From Bacteroidales bacterium (GTDB lineage Bacteria; Bacteroidota; Bacteroidia; Bacteroidales; UBA932), in assembly GCA_017477245.1 (NCBI GenBank), contig JAFUWY010000024.1:1-38685 (forward strand): a DNA stretch of 38,685 bases. Reading direction: 5' to 3'. The notes beneath the pieces are model-generated. The model worked only from the letters and a program-made list of their open reading frames with translations, had not been told where the DNA came from and made no database searches. Positions 29,513 to 38,000 of this stretch are shown here, piece after piece. The first letter of the stretch is position 1; each line of letters opens with the position of its first letter. A program made the position numbers and the translations under genes.

Positions 29513-32251
29513 TTATTCAAGAGGCTCGTTGGTGTCGCAGTTGATCCAGACAAATTTGCTGCTATCGGGTCCCCATATTCCATCAAGAGTTAACCAATCA
29601 TTCTTGAAATCCTGTGAGCAATATATTGTGCAGTTCTCAACATCTCTTGCTAAATCTGTTGCGAAATACCAAGGCCCAACAATTCTAAATGAATTGTTCA
29701 GATGAAGTTCTTCGAGTTGGAAACAGTCCCTGATAAAAGCTTCCATCCCACCATCAAGATGGCTTGTATCGAAAGATGACAAATTCAAGGTCCGCAAAGC
29801 GTGACATCCGTAGAACATATTCTGCATTGATTTTGCCGAAGATGTGTTGAAGAAACGCAGGTCAAGTTCCGTAAGACTATTACATTCTCTGAACATGTCG
29901 CCAAAATACTCACAATAATGGGTGTCAAATGTTCCAAAAACAATATTTATTAGAGATGAGCAACCACTGAATAAACCAGTCATGTCCGCAATGTGGGACA
30001 TGTCGAAGCTGCTGATGTCAATTGTTTCCAAACTGCTACATCCAAAGAACATATTGGATAGAGAACTGACGTTGCCAGTGCTGAATGAAGAAACGTCCAG
30101 AGAAGTTAAAGAAGAACATTCGGTGAACATCCCGGAAAATCCTGTTCCAGGATCATTATCTTTGACACTGTATGTAGCAAAATTGCTCACGTTGAGGTTG
30201 TTCAATCCTGTACAATATTCGAACATTCTTCCGAATGATGTGACATTGTTTGTTGTAAAATTACTCAAATCCAAAGAGGTTAGCGAAGAGCAATACGCGA
30301 ACATCCGATACATGTTTTCAGCACTGCTCGTGTTCCATTTGGAGACGTCGATTGTGGTGAGTGAAGAACATCCCGCAAAAAGGGCAGAGAAATTTTTGAC
30401 ATTGCTAACTTTCCAATTCGAAACATCCAGAGTCTTCAGTGTTCTGCATTCTTCAAAAACACTACCGAGACTCTCTGATTCTGAAACATCCCAGTCGGAA
30501 ACGTCAACTGCTTGTAAGGCAAAACATCCGGAAAACATACCTTCTATCCAATCACCTCTGGTTACAGGAATATCACCTATTATCTCGGTTAATGAATTGC
30601 AGTGTTGGAATAATCTCCAATAGCTTGTGGCATTGGAAAAATCAAACATGCTAACATCAATCCTTTTCAGGTTTATGCATCCTTCGAAAATTCCATTAAA
30701 TCCATTGACGTTAGATGTATTGAAGCGATCCCCAAATGTTATGCTTTCCAAAGACTCGCACATGTAGAACATAAACCCCGGATCTTGGAGGTTGGGTGTA
30801 TTGAAATGTGACAGGTCCAGTTCAGTCAACGAGCGACAACCTCCGAACATCATTCCAAGAGATGTCGCAGAGCTCACATCAAGATTAGCGATGTTTAGAT
30901 TATTTAGTTTCTTACACTCCATGAATAGTTCATGGAAATCAGAGACACCGCCGGAATTCCAATCGGATAAGTCCAAATTCACAAGTGAACGGCACTCTGA
31001 GAAGAAGGAGGCAACAGTACCTGTATAAGTCAAATCAAAGCCTGCGAAATTGACTTCTGTCAATTGGTCCAGTTTGTTAAACATTCCGGAAGCATCCTGA
31101 TTTGCATATACCTTATTGGAAGGAGTGCGCACAACAAGTTCATTCGTTTCTGGTTTCCAATATGCGTAAATCGGTGAAGGGCTGTCAGGCGCTGAGACAT
31201 CAACGCGTTCATAGTCTGAAGGGACCTCATCATCTCCAACCTCGAAGGAAATAGACTTGATACGATAATCCGTTTTGTCAAAAATGAAGTGCTCGCCGTT
31301 GACCAGCGACTTAATATCTTCATTGAACTGGTGTCCACTCTCTAACTTAATAACGTCTCCCCCAACCATTGTTCCCATAGAGGGACGGTATGACTTCCCT
31401 GCCAAGAAGGGCTTGTTCGCGCCACGTGTGAAAGATGTTTCGCAATCTGCATGGTCGCCGCGCAGATTGACGGTAATTGTTTGCCCCGACATGTCAACGG
31501 GAGGAATCATCGCATAAACGACTACATTCTCATTTGCCTGAGTCGTAATTAGATTATTTAGATGGATGACAAACTCATTGCTCCAATCCGTTGGCGTAAT
31601 TTCTGGCGTTGTTGCTGTAATATCTATCGTGCCCTTGGTAACAAATGGAACATCGTGGCAGGTAAGGGTCAGTGTAGTATATTCTCCAACCTTAGGAACA
31701 GTTAGATTAAGCATCAACAAAGCACCCAGATGCTTGAAATCAAACGAAATCTCTCCATCTGAAGGCGCGGATGACGCTGCTGCCATATAGTCAAACGGGC
31801 TGAGATGTGAGGTGTTGGTATTGCCGTCTTGTACCTGTCCTGTATAATCTACCGGAATAGCAGTCTTATCCAAATCCATGTCGGGGATGAATGGATAATA
31901 CGCCATGTATTGATGAGCGCCCTTTACAGCCCATCCCCCGCCAGTGAATTTGGCAACTTGTGTATTCTCGCCAAGACCCTCGACTATCGGGAAACGAACC
32001 TGAGTCCCAACGTCGGGATAAATGCCGACAATATCACCGGCAGCCCAAGCGAAGACTGCGCCGTCGGTATCGCTGACCGTCAAACTTGTTTTGGTGGCAG
32101 GGTTCTCTGCCCAAACAAAATTATGCGCCCGGATTATAACTCTCTCGAAGTCTCCGGAAGATTCGTCTTGTATGTCAAGCGGCTCGACAGAACAAGAAGC
32201 AAGCGCTATCATCGACAATAGCGCCAGAATAGGTCTCAAACTGGTTTTCAT
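29513..32251 (-). CDS. Fimbrillin-like/BspA-type (DUF285) repeat surface lipoprotein
   Basis: A 912-residue predicted lipoprotein (signal to LLSMIALASC, Cys20). The N-terminal 300 or so residues resemble Mfa/fimbrillin-like domains (ATKTSLTVSDTDGAVFAW, GAHQYMAYYPFIPDM). From about residue 395 to 845 I count 17 units of about 25 residues of the form (S)LTxLDLSxFxTxxVxxMxxMFxxC, the DUF285/BspA leucine-rich-like repeat found on surface proteins of Bacteroidetes and other host-associated microbes. Function is probably adhesion or binding. Base composition is visibly more AT-rich than the dcw genes. The start MKTSLRPILALLS at 32251 begins the signal peptide; the upstream extension to 32281 is not needed. 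It follows a 52-codon gene by 17 bp. Confidence 0.87.
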   Translation of the reverse strand: MKTSLRPILALLSMIALASCSVEPLDIQDESSGDFERVIIRAHNFVWAENPATKTSLTVSDTDGAVFAWAAGDIVGIYPDVGTQVRFPIVEGLGENTQVAKFTGGGWAVKGAHQYMAYYPFIPDMDLDKTAIPVDYTGQVQDGNTNTSHLSPFDYMAAASSAPSDGEISFDFKHLGALLMLNLTVPKVGEYTTLTLTCHDVPFVTKGTIDITATTPEITPTDWSNEFVIHLNNLITTQANENVVVYAMIPPVDMSGQTITVNLRGDHADCETSFTRGANKPFLAGKSYRPSMGTMVGGDVIKLESGHQFNEDIKSLVNGEHFIFDKTDYRIKSISFEVGDDEVPSDYERVDVSAPDSPSPIYAYWKPETNELVVRTPSNKVYANQDASGMFNKLDQLTEVNFAGFDLTYTGTVASFFSECRSLVNLDLSDWNSGGVSDFHELFMECKKLNNLNIANLDVSSATSLGMMFGGCRSLTELDLSHFNTPNLQDPGFMFYMCESLESITFGDRFNTSNVNGFNGIFEGCINLKRIDVSMFDFSNATSYWRLFQHCNSLTEIIGDIPVTRGDWIEGMFSGCFALQAVDVSDWDVSESESLGSVFEECRTLKTLDVSNWKVSNVKNFSALFAGCSSLTTIDVSKWNTSSAENMYRMFAYCSSLTSLDLSNFTTNNVTSFGRMFEYCTGLNNLNVSNFATYSVKDNDPGTGFSGMFTECSSLTSLDVSSFSTGNVSSLSNMFFGCSSLETIDISSFDMSHIADMTGLFSGCSSLINIVFGTFDTHYCEYFGDMFRECNSLTELDLRFFNTSSAKSMQNMFYGCHALRTLNLSSFDTSHLDGGMEAFIRDCFQLEELHLNNSFRIVGPWYFATDLARDVENCTIYCSQDFKNDWLTLDGIWGPDSSKFVWINCDTNEPLE

Positions 32252-32268
32252 TGTATAGGATAATGTGA

Positions 32269-32427
32269 TTAGTCGTCCCAAGGCATATTGTGGCCAGTCC
32301 CGCCGGTATCATCATCGTCTCCGTTGGAACCAGTCAGTAAAGAGTGTTCATGTTGAATAATAACGATTTCAGCAACAGGTGCTGAATAAGCCTCTTGCTG
32401 GTGTACCTCATTGGAAGAAACCTTCAT
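32269..32427 (-). CDS. Small acidic-tailed protein preceding the BspA-type lipoprotein
   Basis: A 52-residue ORF beginning MKVSSNEVHQQEAYSAPVAE and ending with an Asp/Gly-rich tail (GSNGDDDDTGGTGHNMPWDD). Short proteins of this style, a hydrophobic core then a Gly/Asp tail, commonly sit immediately upstream of fimbrillin/BspA genes in Bacteroidales; their role is unknown. No signal peptide. The start at 32427 is preferred over an upstream Met at 32490 because the extra residues look like leader sequence. Long 5' leader with its own predicted structure. Confidence 0.65.
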   Translation of the reverse strand: MKVSSNEVHQQEAYSAPVAEIVIIQHEHSLLTGSNGDDDDTGGTGHNMPWDD

Positions 32428-32917: not shown

Positions 32918-33712
32918 TCAAAACGGGTCATCGCTTTCATCTTTGTCCACCTCCGCCTTCCGGGCCTCGCGTATCTGCTGGACTGCGGCATTGATGTCCT
33001 CGACGACCAGCCGCTTCGCTTCGTCAAGCGTTGGGAGTTTGTCGAGGCGCTGGCATATTAGCGCTGCTTCCATTGCTAGCAGGGCCTCGTGTTTGTATCT
33101 CTCCTTGTTGGCTCTTGCCAGTGCGACCTTGTCAATAGCCTGTTCGTAGCGGTTGACGAGTTCTCGCTCTGACATGTTGGAATGCTGGTGGCGTATCAAA
33201 CTGATATCGTCATTGGAGGGTGAACCTGTGCTGTCTGCCTTAAAGATACTCTCAATGGAGATAGGCAGAGATAATCCAATACTACTCCCGGAACCCCTTG
33301 CGGGTTCCATCGCCGCAGGCGACTGGATCAATTCATCATTATCTTTTTCATTTTCATTTACCTTTTCATTCTCATCTACATCAAGGGGTTTTCTTGGGGT
33401 TTTCCCTCTCCGAATGTCATACTCCTCCCTTGTCTCTCCTTTTCTGGGACGTCCGCCTTTGGAGCCATGCTCTTTCCCTTTCTTGCCGTTGTCAACGCAT
33501 CGCTGATAACGTGCGGCTGCGGCGTTAAGGTTGGGTTTCGCCATCGTCAAGATAATGTTCACAACCGGGTCCCTGGAGAGCACATCCTGTCCATACAGGG
33601 CGTAATCCCTCAACTTTAGTATGCATTCTTTGAAGGCTGCGGGCTCGAGGTTCTCCGCTGCCTCCAAAAAAGACGCATACATCACGAAACTTTGCCGCTC
33701 ATTTCCGTCCAT
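32918..33712 (-). CDS. DUF6291-like protein of mobile-element type
   Basis: A 264-residue protein. The N-terminal part (MDGNERQSFVMYASFLEAAE, then RDYALYGQDV and NIILTMAKPNLNAAAARYQRCVDNGKKG) resembles DUF6291, found on Bacteroidetes prophages, plasmids and integrative elements. A basic linker GRPRKGETREEYDIRRGKTP is followed by an acidic, Asn/Glu-rich low-complexity stretch, and a C-terminal helical segment rich in Ala/Arg/Glu. By analogy with phage replication-initiation loader proteins it might act in DNA replication of an element, but that is inference. AT-richer than its surroundings. It overlaps the upstream small gene by 14 bp and has its own terminator. Confidence 0.7.
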   Translation of the reverse strand: MDGNERQSFVMYASFLEAAENLEPAAFKECILKLRDYALYGQDVLSRDPVVNIILTMAKPNLNAAAARYQRCVDNGKKGKEHGSKGGRPRKGETREEYDIRRGKTPRKPLDVDENEKVNENEKDNDELIQSPAAMEPARGSGSSIGLSLPISIESIFKADSTGSPSNDDISLIRHQHSNMSERELVNRYEQAIDKVALARANKERYKHEALLAMEAALICQRLDKLPTLDEAKRLVVEDINAAVQQIREARKAEVDKDESDDPF

Positions 33713-33944
33713 CGAGTTGAGGTGTTTCCAACATTATGTCCTGAATCGTTGTGTCTCTGTCATCAACGGAATGCCCGTCCTTAGCCGGTATAGCAGCCCA
33801 CGCTCGCTTCTGGCCAGCAGATATCTTCGCCCGGGTCTCCGGTGACTTGGGCTTGTGGAGATTCGCATTCGCCCTCAATTTTGCCTTTACGTACTCCGGC
33901 ATCTCGCGGGAGGTACGCTTGTAATTCTTTGTATCCATAGTCAT
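33699..33944 (-). CDS. Small basic protein, NUMOD3-like motif
   Basis: An 81-residue basic protein. The stretch KSPETRAKISAGQKRAWA resembles the NUMOD3 motif (typical form SxETRxKISxAxKG), a DNA-binding helix often found near homing-type nucleases. No catalytic domain is present, so this is at most a DNA-binding accessory. Start could be 33944 (MTMDTK) or 33938 (MDTK). It overlaps the DUF6291 start by 14 bp and is presumably its operon partner. No promoter match was found upstream. Confidence 0.6.
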   Translation of the reverse strand: MTMDTKNYKRTSREMPEYVKAKLRANANLHKPKSPETRAKISAGQKRAWAAIPAKDGHSVDDRDTTIQDIMLETPQLDGRK

Positions 33945-34264
33945 TCTGTCTTTACTATACCATAAATACTTACTCGTTTCGAAAAGTTCCGGAAAATCTC
34001 AAGATTTCTTTCATGCGGCAATCCGGGAGCTTCAACGGACCTGGTCATCCGAGGGAAATTATTGTTGAATTTGGGAGGCCGTTTTGATCCAGTGAATTTC
34101 CGGCCGGAGATTCATGGAGCGCACCAGGGGCACTTCATTCAATACTTACCCATAGGGGTAGCAAAGTTTTTGACTTACGCTGGACCGATGAGCGGCGAGG
34201 AGTTTCCGGTTTGGATAGTTGATATCGGAGAGGTGGAAATCTTTGAGCATTTTTCTGCCAAATG
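33945..34264. other. Intergenic region without a supportable gene
   Basis: About 320 bp between the small NUMOD3-like gene and the next promoter. One 69-codon frame (34062-34271, plus) shows no signal, family or promoter and overlaps the following promoter; I do not call it. No strong inverted repeats were noticed. Confidence 0.5.
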
Positions 34265-34294
34265 TTGCTAGATTGAAAAGATTTTGTACCTTTG
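34265..34294 (+). promoter_or_regulatory. Promoter of the structured small-peptide transcript
   Basis: TTG at 34265-34267 and TACCTTTG at 34287-34294 with a 19-bp spacer fit the Bacteroidetes pattern; transcription should start near 34300. Confidence 0.65.
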
Positions 34295-34299
34295 TAGCA

Positions 34300-34371
34300 G
34301 CGTTATGTTCTCATTTATTGTTGAGACAGACAACAGGCATCTATCCTCTAAATGGATGTCTGTTTTATTTT
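34300..34371 (+). ncRNA. Short leader RNA ending in a terminator-like hairpin
   Basis: From the predicted start, about 72 bases end in AACAGGCATC/GATGTCTGTT (34332-34341 with 34355-34364; 10 bp including one G-U) and TTTTATTTT, a plausible intrinsic terminator. The first 17 bases hold GCGTTATG (34300-34307) and GTTCTCATTT (34307-34316), exact complements of 34443-34450 and 34451-34460, the latter containing the ATG of the downstream peptide. It may therefore be a cis leader, or a terminated antisense-like RNA acting on the read-through message. No Rfam family is recognised. Confidence 0.45.
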
Positions 34372-34452
34372 AGAAAGGCCCTTAACCGAGGGGAGGTACT
34401 GAATGCAAGCCTTGATAGTTCTCTCACTATCAACAATATTAGCATAACGCAA

Positions 34453-34584
34453 ATGAGAACTTATCCAATGCTGATTCAAATCTCCGTGAGAGTGGAGGTT
34501 GTGAGGCTTGTCAGAGTGAGAGCGTACACACGCTGGCACAATGGCAGGCAAGTAAAGGTTCGGAGCCACTATCGCAAATATTAG
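34453..34584 (+). CDS. 43-residue basic peptide in a structured transcript
   Basis: The ORF begins MRTYPMLIQISVRVEVVRLV, continues with an Arg/Val alternation (RVRAYTRWHNG) and ends in VRSHYRKY. The peptide is strongly basic, with no signal peptide or obvious membrane helix. Similar Val/Arg-rich short ORFs occur in Bacteroidales as far as I recall, but I cannot name a family. The ATG lies within a 10-base segment that is perfectly complementary to the 5' end of the predicted transcript. Pairing of AACCGAGGGG (34384-34393) with CCCCTCGGTT (34639-34648) would enclose the ORF in one closed RNA domain. Function unknown; a regulatory or toxin-like peptide is speculation. Confidence 0.5.
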   Translation: MRTYPMLIQISVRVEVVRLVRVRAYTRWHNGRQVKVRSHYRKY

Positions 34585-34594
34585 AGGTGTTTGA

Positions 34595-34653
34595 AGTAGG
34601 TTCGTTCTGAACCCGTACCGAAAGGTAGCCTACTCTTTCCCCTCGGTTTTTTC
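34595..34653 (+). terminator. 3' structured domain and terminator of the small-peptide transcript
   Basis: AGTAGG/CCTACT (34595-34600 with 34629-34634) encloses TTC-GAA and TACC-GAAA-GGTA hairpins (the latter with a GNRA tetraloop). CCCCTCGGTT (34639-34648) pairs with 34384-34393, 10 bp extendable by one, and is followed by a T run. A possible minus-strand -7 box TATGTTTG (34661-34668) could start an antisense RNA here. Confidence 0.5.
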
Positions 34654-34799
34654 ATCGATACAAACATACGAATTACATGGGTCGGGTATCCATTTCCGGA
34701 GTTCCCAGAGGCGTTCCAAGTCCTCCAAAAAGCGGTTCGAGAAAAGATAATCGGAGTTTGCGATTCCCCCCTTGGTCGCTTCGCTCAGGGTACTGCGGA

Positions 34800-34830: not shown

Positions 34831-34910
34831 TCCCGGCGGAGACGGAGGAATCAAACTTTTTCGTATCTTTCAACTCCCAACAAGAACAAGTGATCAAGAT
34901 CCTGAAAGAT

Positions 34911-37900
34911 ATGAAACGTGTCCTTCTCTCCATCCTGGTGCTGTCCGCCTGGACCGTCGCGTCGGCCGACAACATCCGCTTCGCCTCCCGCCCCTCGCTC
35001 TCGCCGGACGGGGCGCAGATCTATTTCAGCTATGACGGAGATATCTATCGCGTGCCGGCAGGCGGCGGGCAGGCCGCGGCCGTGATCACGATGCCCGGCG
35101 TGCAGGACTCGCCGCTCGTCTCGCCGGACGGCAGGTGGCTGGCGTTCAGCTCGGACATCCAGGGCAATGCCGACGTGTACGTGGTGCCGCTCGCCGGCGG
35201 ACAGGCCGTCCAGCTGACCTTCCACGAGGCGCCGGACGTGCCGGTGTCGTGGTCGGGCGACTCGCAGTACATCTACTTCGAGTCCACGCGCGAGAGCGCC
35301 CGCAAGACCAGCTTCCGCGTACCGGTCACGGGCGGTACGCCGCAACTGATGTTCGAAGGGTTCTTCAACACCGTCGTGAACCTCGTGCAGAATCCCCGCA
35401 CGGGCGAGTTCCTCTTCAACGAGTCGATGGAGAGCATCAGCTTCCCGACCCGCAAGCGCTACGTGGGCGACCACAATCCCAACATCAAGTGCTGGGACCC
35501 GCAGACCCGGACCTACACGGAACTGACCGACTATATCGGCAAGGACCAGTGGCCGATGGCCGACAACCGGGGCAACGTCTACTACGTCAGCGACGAGTAC
35601 AACAAGGAGTCGAACATCGTCCGTTACGTGCCGGGCGGCAAGCCGGTGCAGCTCACCACCTTCGACAAGTCCGTCCAGTATCCTTCCGTCGCCTTCGACG
35701 GCTCCGCGATGGTGTTCCTCAAGGACTATGAGATCCACCTGCTGGACCTGGGCTCCGGCCGCGTGTCCGTGCCGGACATCCGCGTGGCTTCCGGCAGCGT
35801 CGAGGTCCGCCGCTCCTTCGCGGAACAGAAGCCGACGGCGGCCGACGTGTCCCCGGACGGCAAGAAGTTCGCCTTCGTCATCCGCGGCAGCCTGTATGTC
35901 TCGGACACGAAATGCAAATACCTGCAGGAACTGCCGACGCCCCGGGACGAGCGCGTCGCCGAGGTCGTCTGGGGCAGCGACAGCAAGACGGTCTATTACA
36001 CGCGGACCCGCCAAGGCTGGACCAACCTGTACAAGATCGCGGCGGACGGATCCGCGCCCGAGTCTTCAGTCTACCAGTCAGACAACAATGTCAAGAACCT
36101 GACGCTGAACCGCAAACGGGACAAGCTGGCCTTCATCGACGGCAGCCGGTCCGTCATGCTCCTTGACATGGCCGCCGGCACGACCGCCAAACTGGCGGAG
36201 GTCGAATTCTGGTCCTTCCAGGGCTATGACCTGTCGTTCTCCTCCGACGGCCGCTATCTCGCCTTCGACGCGATGCACCGTTTCGAGTCCGACATCTTCC
36301 TCTATGACCTCCAGGAAGGACGCCTGGTCAATTTCACGCATTCCGCATCCGTGGAGCGCAATCCGGTCTTCTCCCCGGACGGGAAATACATGTACCTGCT
36401 GGCCAATCCCACGTCCGCTTCTTTCCCGAAAGGCACGCGGGCTTCGCTCTACAAGCTGCCGCTGCGCAAATACGACACCCCCTTCAAGTCCGAGACGGTC
36501 GAGGCCCTGTTCCGGGACAAGAAGGACGCCCCCAAGAAGGATTCCACCGTGCACATCGATTTCAGCAACATCCATGAACGGCTGGAACGTGTCGTGCGGG
36601 AGGGGAACCAGACCGGCCTGTACGTCTATTCCACGAAGGGAAAGGATTATCTGCTGTACCGCTCGTACGCGTCCGGCCCCGCGGGTACCTATTCGCTGGA
36701 GATCTCCGATCCCGAGGCCAAGCCCAAGCAGGTCAAGGACCTGTCCGGCGGCTCTTTCTTCAGCAGCAAGGACGCCCTGTACTGCCTGAGCGGCGGGGAC
36801 ATCTACAAGGTGGATCCTGCAGCGGGCTCCGCTTCCAAGACGGCGGTCTCCAAGGATGTCGAGGCCGTCCTGGCGGACGAATTCAGCCAGATGTTCCACG
36901 AGGCCTGGGCGGTGATGGAGCAGAACTACTACGATGTCAGGTTCCATGGCACGGACTGGTATGCCGACCATGATTATTATGCTTCCTTCCTGCCGTATGT
37001 CCGCACGCGCGCCAACCTGCGGACCCTGATCACCGACCTGCTGGGCGAACTGAATTCCTCCCACCAGGGATTCACTTCCTCCGGTGCCGAGGAGCGGGCC
37101 GAGACCCGCGTCCGGACCTATGCCACGGGCATCCTCTTCGACGGCGCCGACCCGTATGCGGTCGCGGGGGTCCTGCCGGATTCCCCGGCGGACAAATACG
37201 GGATCGACCTGCGTCGGGGCGACCGCCTCGTGGCGGTCGACGGTGCCCGCGTCGACGCGCAGGCGAACCGCGAGCGCTACTTCTCCGGCGCCGTGGCGCG
37301 GGATGAGCTGAAGCTGACGTTCAGCCGCGACGGCAGCGAATTCGACGTCAAGGTGCATCCTGCCACGTTCTCCGCCGTCAAGGCCCTGGCCTACAAGGCC
37401 TGGGAGACGGAGCGGGCCGACACCGTCTCCCGCCGGACCGGCGGCCGCGTGGGCTACATCCACATGCGCGCGATGGGCGACGAGGACCTGAACAATTTCC
37501 TGCTCAAGATGCACACGGAAGTGTACGACAAGGACGCCCTGATCCTGGACCTGCGCTACAACAACGGCGGCAACGTCCACAAGGAAGTGATCGATTTCCT
37601 GCGCGGAGAGGGCCATTTCGAATGGTCATACCGTGATTTCCCGCGGACGACGCATCCCAATGTGGCGCCTGCCGGCAAGCCGATCGTGGTCCTGGTCAAC
37701 GAACACAGCCTCTCCGATGCCGAGGTGACCTCCAACGGCATCAAGACCCTGGGCATCGCCAAGCTGGTGGGCACGGAGACCTACCGCTGGATCATCTTCA
37801 CCTCTTCGGTGCGCCTGCTGGACGGCTCCAGCGTGCGCATGCCGGCCTGGGGTTGCTACAGTGTCGTGGACGGCTCCGACCTGGAGAGCACCGGCGTCAA

Positions 37901-38000
37901 GCCGGACATCTACGTGAAGAACACCTTCCGCGACCGCCTGGAGGGGAAGGACCCGCAGCTGGACGCGGCGATCCGGGAGATCCTGGCCGAGATGCGCTGA
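34911..38000 (+). CDS. Tricorn-like S41 family peptidase, secreted
   Basis: A 1029-residue exported protein (signal MKRVLLSILVLSAWTVASA). The N-terminal two thirds carry TolB/WD40-like beta-propeller blades (SPDGAQIYFSYDGDIYRVP, SPDGRWLAFSSDIQGNADVY, SPDGKKFAFVIRGSLYVSD, FSSDGRYLAFDAM). Then a tricorn-type helical part (MFHEAWAVMEQNYYD), a PDZ-like domain near residues 735-830 (GVLPDSPADKYGIDLRRGD) and the S41 protease domain with GYIHMRAMGD, LDLRYNNGGNVH and catalytic S935 in SLSDAEVTSNG. Probably degrades peptides in the periplasm. The start at 34911 begins the signal peptide; a longer frame from 34677 is not supported. The downstream kinase gene is 13 bp away. Confidence 0.93.
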   Translation: MKRVLLSILVLSAWTVASADNIRFASRPSLSPDGAQIYFSYDGDIYRVPAGGGQAAAVITMPGVQDSPLVSPDGRWLAFSSDIQGNADVYVVPLAGGQAVQLTFHEAPDVPVSWSGDSQYIYFESTRESARKTSFRVPVTGGTPQLMFEGFFNTVVNLVQNPRTGEFLFNESMESISFPTRKRYVGDHNPNIKCWDPQTRTYTELTDYIGKDQWPMADNRGNVYYVSDEYNKESNIVRYVPGGKPVQLTTFDKSVQYPSVAFDGSAMVFLKDYEIHLLDLGSGRVSVPDIRVASGSVEVRRSFAEQKPTAADVSPDGKKFAFVIRGSLYVSDTKCKYLQELPTPRDERVAEVVWGSDSKTVYYTRTRQGWTNLYKIAADGSAPESSVYQSDNNVKNLTLNRKRDKLAFIDGSRSVMLLDMAAGTTAKLAEVEFWSFQGYDLSFSSDGRYLAFDAMHRFESDIFLYDLQEGRLVNFTHSASVERNPVFSPDGKYMYLLANPTSASFPKGTRASLYKLPLRKYDTPFKSETVEALFRDKKDAPKKDSTVHIDFSNIHERLERVVREGNQTGLYVYSTKGKDYLLYRSYASGPAGTYSLEISDPEAKPKQVKDLSGGSFFSSKDALYCLSGGDIYKVDPAAGSASKTAVSKDVEAVLADEFSQMFHEAWAVMEQNYYDVRFHGTDWYADHDYYASFLPYVRTRANLRTLITDLLGELNSSHQGFTSSGAEERAETRVRTYATGILFDGADPYAVAGVLPDSPADKYGIDLRRGDRLVAVDGARVDAQANRERYFSGAVARDELKLTFSRDGSEFDVKVHPATFSAVKALAYKAWETERADTVSRRTGGRVGYIHMRAMGDEDLNNFLLKMHTEVYDKDALILDLRYNNGGNVHKEVIDFLRGEGHFEWSYRDFPRTTHPNVAPAGKPIVVLVNEHSLSDAEVTSNGIKTLGIAKLVGTETYRWIIFTSSVRLLDGSSVRMPAWGCYSVVDGSDLESTGVKPDIYVKNTFRDRLEGKDPQLDAAIREILAEMR

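Follow-up and report, generated by a model that had tools for sequence, protein, structure and literature searches.

Type I toxin-antitoxin systems have structured mRNAs, and among paralogues their RNA pairing is copy-specific. In members such as Hok/Sok, TisB/IstR-1 and SymE/SymR the RNA shows complementarity to the leader or the start region of an mRNA for a small protein, and the toxins are described as generally hydrophobic, SymE and RalR excepted (in the coverage of PMC4147584), while the antitoxins are encoded on the opposite strand under promoters of their own (PMC12390103). Before the cyanobacterial case that the latter paper reported in 2025, by its own account, only Proteobacteria, Firmicutes and Tenericutes were known to have type I systems. 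In type III systems (ToxIN, CptNI, TenpNI), as in AbiF/RCd22, one promoter is followed by a short non-coding RNA, a Rho-independent terminator and a protein gene, and the type III terminator is described as keeping the RNA in excess of the toxin mRNA (PMC4147584, PMC12373285). Here we describe a candidate module that resembles both types, located at positions 34264-34652 of a 38,685-nt stretch from a Bacteroidales bacterium (GTDB UBA932; GenBank assembly GCA_017477245.1, contig JAFUWY010000024.1). This whole stretch, hereafter the window, is one entire contig of a 2.38-Mb, 48-contig genome (contig C22). The segment is one copy of a compact module comprising, all on the forward strand, a promoter, a 5' tag, a terminator-like hairpin (HP1), a leader carrying the tag complement immediately 5' of the ATG or spanning it, a small open reading frame (ORF) and a terminator-like closing stem (P1). 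On balance we lean towards reading it as a toxin-antitoxin-like module with self-specific RNA pairing, for which toxicity of the protein and its repression by the RNA are predicted.

The module is like type III systems in joining promoter, RNA, terminator and protein gene in one unit, so far as sequence signals indicate. It differs from them in that its RNA lacks tandem repeats (window positions 34250-34700, with no direct repeat of length 12 or more in four tag RNAs, those of the window and of loci L104, L073 and L029) and is complementary to the mRNA start, and in that the protein is small and shows no RNase similarity in searches of Pfam (above cut-off), NCBIfam and PADLOC. A mode of action in which the protein is inhibited through direct binding of the short RNA, complementarity being secondary, would fit the order of RNA, terminator and ORF, which is that given for type III in PMC4147584, and would also fit the strongly basic protein, with its median charge of +12; we nevertheless hold it to be very improbable, because the tags vary in sequence from copy to copy yet stay complementary to the start region, because the four tag RNAs lack direct repeats, and because the protein, of 43-50 aa, matches no RNase family. 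With type I systems the module shares an RNA complementary to the start region of a small-protein mRNA; in contrast to them, the tag belongs to the transcription unit of the mRNA itself, as its 5' portion, with a co-directional promoter box upstream, and the protein is highly basic. A first-pass annotation, made by a model from the letters of this locus, had suggested a type I-like toxin-antitoxin unit, a label that does not suit a highly charged, non-hydrophobic protein or the lack of any sign of an opposite-strand promoter: TAnnTTTG was found on the opposite strand in 6/66 copies against a shuffled mean of 7.3, no excess, in a scan that covered this promoter type only. No description of such a module appeared among the literature matches listed, which came from sources other than subscription papers and preprints.

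Pairing of tag and target

In the window, the 5' tag (34300-34324) consists of GCGTTATG at 34300-34307 and ATTGTTGA at 34317-34324, which are complementary to the leader directly 5' of the ATG, where the target occupies 34430-34450 in the loop of a stem termed P2 (TCAACAAT at 34430-34437 and CATAACGC at 34443-34450). The blocks GCGTTATG/CATAACGC and ATTGTTGA/TCAACAAT are in register and form an ordinary nested, interrupted helix, with a duplex energy of -25.7 kcal/mol against a shuffled mean of -12.6 (0/200 shuffles as good). The first-pass annotation had noticed GCGTTATG with CATAACGC, and GTTCTCATTT (34307-34316) with AAATGAGAAC (34451-34460), both of which are indeed complementary, and had found it puzzling that the two blocks occur in the same order in both places, which precludes one simple helix. 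Because the overlooked ATTGTTGA/TCAACAAT block nests with GCGTTATG/CATAACGC, that puzzle disappears for the main pairing and stands only for the extra GTTCTCATTT block. Nor is GTTCTCATTT/AAATGAGAAC the general pairing, since the conserved helix uses GCGTTATG and ATTGTTGA instead. The middle block of the tag, GTTCTCATTT, has two possible partners, the start codon region and, for part of its length, TGAGA within the tag; the extra block recurs, changed on both sides (CTCATAAG/CTTATGAG), in the closest DNA match, L009, and no block of this type was seen by eye in copies other than these two.

Across relatives, comparison rested on 66 distinct P1-bounded copies and 61 more loci (57 of them found by protein alone), all from the bacterial family to which the window belongs or from Bacteroidales or Bacteroidia metagenome-assembled genomes. 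The 66 copies, of which 41 came from a CCGAGGGGAGGT/CCCCTCGGTTT pattern and 25 from other loci, exclude those with <130 nt upstream and those with identical P1-bounded sequences. The claim that the 5' end is complementary to the start of its own ORF holds in nearly all of these 127 copies. When the tags of the 66 copies were grouped at 70% identity and one representative of each of the 33 resulting clusters was entered in a matrix, own duplexes averaged -24.7 kcal/mol and cross duplexes -11.8, a difference reached in 0/10,000 permutations, and the own target was best in 29/33 rows. At most 1/200 shuffles was as good in 31 of the 33 clusters, the exceptions being L039 (11) and L076 (4). The helix has a median of 22 pairs and touches the start codon in 56/65 copies, covering all three of its bases in 45/65. 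Among same-genome paralogues (ten genomes with at least two copies each, counting copies of the 66-set assigned to one genome by contig name or length rather than every copy of each genome), own pairing was stronger than every cross pairing, with a margin of 3 kcal/mol or more, in 23/24 cases, so that paralogues in one genome are nearly orthogonal in their predicted pairing.

Loci found through the protein gave a similar picture. A first automatic pass over 100 unique matches located a terminator hairpin at 94 of them, while 5 had none and 1 lay at an edge; of the 94 hairpin loci 57 were new, and in 48 of these (44/52 after removal of five found by DNA) at most 10/200 shuffles were as good, several of the others having a mis-set hairpin and a tag visible by eye. 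In the 57 protein-only loci, for which the hairpin was not used, the longest perfect complement had a median of 11 nt for own pairs and 6 nt for cross pairs (0/10,000 permutations) and reached at least 9 nt in 51/57, or 49/54 without near-duplicates (again 0/10,000). These 57 omit L013, L019, L036 and L048, members of the 61 that had first been found by DNA; the 61-locus check itself leaves out L024, L161, L182, L201, L206, L211 and L227, which have no ATG near the expected start or are false, although in L182 and L201 a tag is visible by eye. An ORF of at least 40 aa without a recognisable tag was seen only in the pair of copies at L151. These are tandem, with identical ORFs and different upstream stretches, and may have decayed or be under different regulation. 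The possibility that the complementarity arose by chance, in an intergenic region of no special note, was considered and rejected, as 0/10,000 permutations in two sets matched the observed pairing; we give it a negligible probability.

Transcription signals, RNA structure and the small protein

The promoter (34264-34294), which we take to be of Bacteroidota type, consists of TTG at 34264-34266, a 20-nt spacer and TACCTTTG at 34287-34294. A box TAnnTT(T/C)G lies 22-62 nt before HP1 in 66/66 copies, and the similar TnnnTTTG was found in 65/66 against a shuffled mean of 8.5, while internal TAnnTTTG showed no excess (6/66 against 8.0). HP1 with its T-rich tail spans 34332-34371, the hairpin proper being 34332-34364, followed by TTATTTT; it is the predicted 3' end of a short RNA of ~72 nt. 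Its start lies 99-125 nt 5' of the ATG, and at least 5 T follow within 10 nt in 65/66 copies. The closing stem P1 joins AACCGAGGGG (34384-34393) to CCCCTCGGTT (34639-34648), which with its T-run (34639-34652) forms the terminator-like end of the putative long transcript; at least 3 T follow P1 within 5 nt in 66/66 copies, although TTT belonged to the pattern that found 41 of them. Within the leader, the P2 5' arm GATAGTTCTC (34414-34423) faces a 3' arm, GAGAAC-T-TATC (34455-34465), that overlaps the final base of the start codon, and the ORF contains hairpins P3 (34479-34500) and P4 (34506-34549). Farther 3' there is a hairpin with a GAAA loop, TACC-GAAA-GGTA at 34616-34627, evident in both sequence and fold. 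Thus the promoter, terminator-like hairpin, closing stem and GNRA hairpin of the first-pass annotation are all present.

Covarying stems and a conserved ORF, which that annotation had proposed to seek in relatives, were both found. In a count that kept 52 of the 66 copies, leaving out L014 and near-duplicates, HP1, P1, P2, P3 and P4 together had 88.4% of cells paired and 35/50 pairs changed on both sides in some copy, with 0/500 shuffles as good, and slid versions of the structure gave 41-47%, a comparison that favours the real structure because it was drawn from the window copy. For HP1 these values were 94.4% and 10/13 pairs, and for the main block of P2 89.6% and 7/8; P3 had 85.7% of cells paired, and the outer and inner stems of P4 76.2% and 82.2%. 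The constancy of P1 says little, since P1 lay within the search pattern for most copies, and its paired changes come from L016 and L033. The 361-nt RNA of the window folds with z = -4.7 (0/100 shuffles as stable).

The ORF of 43 codons plus stop, MRTYPMLIQISVRVEVVRLVRVRAYTRWHNGRQVKVRSHYRKY at 34453-34584, has a homologue of at least 40 aa in 58/66 copies, two of which (L043, L120) have an altered C-terminal part. Read in frame, the ratio of nonsynonymous to synonymous differences (pN/pS) was 0.26, whereas the two alternative frames gave 0.93 and 1.05 (from 47 ORFs, using codons with a single difference in pairs that have 4-30 differences); in frame over all pairs of ORFs of at least 43 aa without L043 and L120 it was 0.45, with pS saturated at 0.62. 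By these measures the ORF is coding, as had been proposed, and under purifying selection. An upstream ORF after GGGGAGGT, considered by eye, was not conserved. The intact protein is 43-50 aa long in the 66-copy set, with consensus MxxRTxxxxVxISIRVEVVRLVKVKAYKRxRNGKxEKVRSHYRRY, and the 58 intact ORFs encode a median net charge of +12 (range 8 to 17) and 32% Arg+Lys. An AlphaFold2 model has a confident beta part, with block means of 92 (residues 21-40), at a mean per-residue confidence (pLDDT) of 73.2 and a predicted TM score (pTM) of 0.37; with this model a fold search of the PDB gave no match (best E = 4.2), and a sequence search of the PDB nothing better than E = 0.26. From the RNA and protein libraries searched the module is absent, except for an unnamed phage protein family of function unknown, phrog_21154 (47 positions), which 45/46 of the module proteins match (best E = 8.1e-10). 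Set against this likeness, no named phage or viral contig among those searched carries the module. The phrog_21154 model also matches in E. coli among 14 control genomes. In Rfam searches, the window yielded only a tRNA, and the module region matched far below the gathering score.

Distribution and genomic setting

A second copy in the same genome, on contig C25, carries a homologue of the ORF, and its tag, though different, likewise complements the start of that copy's ORF. Within the family, 47 of 149 genomes searched with DNA gave a match at E up to 0.1, some of the weaker ones not being real, while a profile of 46 ORFs matched 110/398 genomes (65/207 of high quality) in 6/25 genera, with at most 6 matches per genome. 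The pattern CCGAGGGGAGGT-N226-254-CCCCTCGGTTT, run against genomes of 84,980 species, returned 60 matches in 58 stretches, all from organisms named Bacteroidales or Bacteroidia bacterium, Cryptobacteroides or Coprenecus, the last two being Bacteroidales according to NCBI and Coprenecus a member of the Rikenellaceae. The module is thus patchily widespread within one group of Bacteroidales, which are uncultured gut bacteria. Broader searches brought no convincing match from other families. A phylum-wide search of 296 genomes (E up to 0.01) matched three, namely the same genome and two weak ones, of which L060 showed no module by eye, only a similar short motif, and L059 was viewed as an ORF list. 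Order-wide searches returned, among 247 genomes, the same genome and one of its genus, and, among 344, these two kinds and one weak match in which no module was seen. A class-wide search of 198 genomes with phrog_21154 gave the same genome and one weak match, in which a motif scan found nothing. There was no match in a plasmid collection, and phage searches gave chance matches at a kinase gene and otherwise none or weak partial ones at E = 2 (one Marinitoga region, uninformative). Some loci, by eye, lack the CCGAGGGG stem and yet have the ORF, so that the core of the module seems to comprise tag, terminator, target and ORF, and P1 to be a subfamily feature.

The copies lie among diverse neighbours, 116 neighbour proteins falling into 89 clusters with a largest cluster of 8. 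Within 500 nt of 130 unique loci (a set that includes L024, probably without a module, and counts orthologous sites repeatedly) there are 31 tRNA genes, for example at L005, L018, L021, L022 and L104; 29 of the 31 are upstream on the same strand, and 17 are tRNA-Leu (TAG, GAG, CAA, CAG). With 39 tRNAs in 2.38 Mb, about 1% of random places in the genome that carries the window would lie within 500 nt downstream of a tRNA gene. Integration at the tRNA 3' end was examined and rejected: none of 16 loci has a duplicated end, the best matches being 7-13/20 against 10-14 in a reversed control. The dispersed, multi-copy occurrence among diverse neighbours, together with this strong positional bias, might suggest a structured RNA element, mobile or selfish, with an incidental ORF and with pairing that serves folding or spread. 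We regard such an element as improbable, given an ORF under purifying selection that is also present in loci without the CCGAGGGG stem, the lack of a duplicated tRNA end, and 0 matches in viral contigs with two DNA patterns.

In the window, a segment upstream of the module (32918-33944, reverse strand) looks mobile-element-like, with a DUF6291 protein that has three PHROG matches and a small protein weakly resembling homing endonucleases. A large DUF285-repeat, fimbrillin-like protein is encoded at 29513-32278 on the reverse strand, and the downstream gene (34902-37997) encodes a Tricorn-like PD40/S41 protease. At another site, L043 and L069 have flanks 95% identical and carry different elements, as if one copy had replaced another.

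Proposed mechanism and its meaning

As we envisage it, a single promoter would give rise to two co-directional transcripts. Most transcription would stop at HP1, yielding an RNA of ~72 nt that consists of tag and terminator hairpin, while rarer read-through would yield an RNA of ~350 nt that carries the ORF for the small basic protein and extends as far as P1. Within this longer RNA, P2 would present the tag complement in its loop at the start codon, and the short RNA, being in excess, would pair in trans with the P2 loop and the start codon and so block initiation of translation; the 5' end of the long RNA may also pair in cis, not alongside P1 in a nested fold. Should the short RNA decay or run out, the presumably toxic protein would be made.

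The evolution of the copies is suggestive in this respect. At a tRNA-Leu locus, L018 and L029 are identical throughout the ORF and 3' part (196/196) and agree at 202/218 flank positions, while both tag (22/29) and target (24/31) have changed. Among 13 pairs of copies with alike flanks, tag divergence exceeded flank divergence in 9 and did not in the other 4. Since tag and target change together, each copy would direct its silencing mostly at itself rather than at its paralogues, the behaviour expected of an addiction module. Additionally, the ORF is missing or shortened in 8/66 copies, every one of which retains tag pairing (-18.4 to -29.5 kcal/mol), and three ORF-less remnants (L020, L042 and L046, by eye) retain promoter, tag and HP1. 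Decay therefore looks one-sided, as the logic of toxin and antidote predicts, with few independent events.

Several observations speak against this reading. Six of the 8 copies with decayed ORFs share one shortened form and are not independent. The own target is best in only 20/33 columns of the 33-cluster matrix; in a 22-copy test the own target came first in 17/22, and the window tag paired slightly better with the target of L015 (-23.1) than with its own (-22.5). Weaker results came from two early tests on small sets, made with wide or mis-set windows and, in one of them, with HP1 misplaced in L158, L160 and L162; own was best in 6/13 and 7/12 rows (0/10,000 permutations each). In the protein-only loci the own pairing was strictly best in only 35/57 rows (36/54 without near-duplicates). 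The two L151 copies (6 nt) have no convincing tag, and L215 (8 nt, 30-aa ORF) is uncertain. The protein has no match to a toxin or defence family, with no hit in NCBIfam or PADLOC and none above cut-off in Pfam. A nested fold can contain either P1 or the tag helix but not both; at minimum energy, P1 forms and the tag stays unpaired with its target in 55/65 copies, and the tag helix forms in 10/65. Finally, the long RNA carries its own tag, and cis pairing alone could therefore explain the complementarity.

This last point defines the most serious competitor, a riboregulator acting only in cis, in which the basic protein is harmless or useful, the 5' end folds onto its start codon, HP1 is a mere attenuator, and tags drift by paired changes. 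The complementarity does lie within one transcript, and the C25 copy is among the 10/65 in which the cis helix is the minimum-energy fold. However, such a device has no inherent need of a terminator separating the tag from its target, where a T-rich tail is found in 65/66 copies, nor of the loss of the ORF with retention of tag and HP1 seen in the three remnants. The joint change of tag and target beside an identical ORF at L018/L029 also counts against it, although the tag outpaced the flank in only 9 of the 13 pairs. We consider it unlikely, if still a substantial possibility.

A further-reaching reading, on which we are evenly divided, is to see in the module a new class of RNA antitoxin, encountered so far only in one group of Bacteroidales, that would combine the layout of type III with the pairing of type I. 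Its hypervariable tag and target would then act as a matched barcode, giving each paralogue a private antidote and allowing specificity to change while the protein stays the same. If true, Bacteroidota would possess an RNA-paired toxin-antitoxin-like system whose layout joins two recognised types, and its 33 tag clusters would offer a natural set for studying the orthogonality of RNA pairs. It would also make directly testable why a terminator separates the complementary stretches, and why copies are found downstream of tRNA genes, tRNA-Leu above all.
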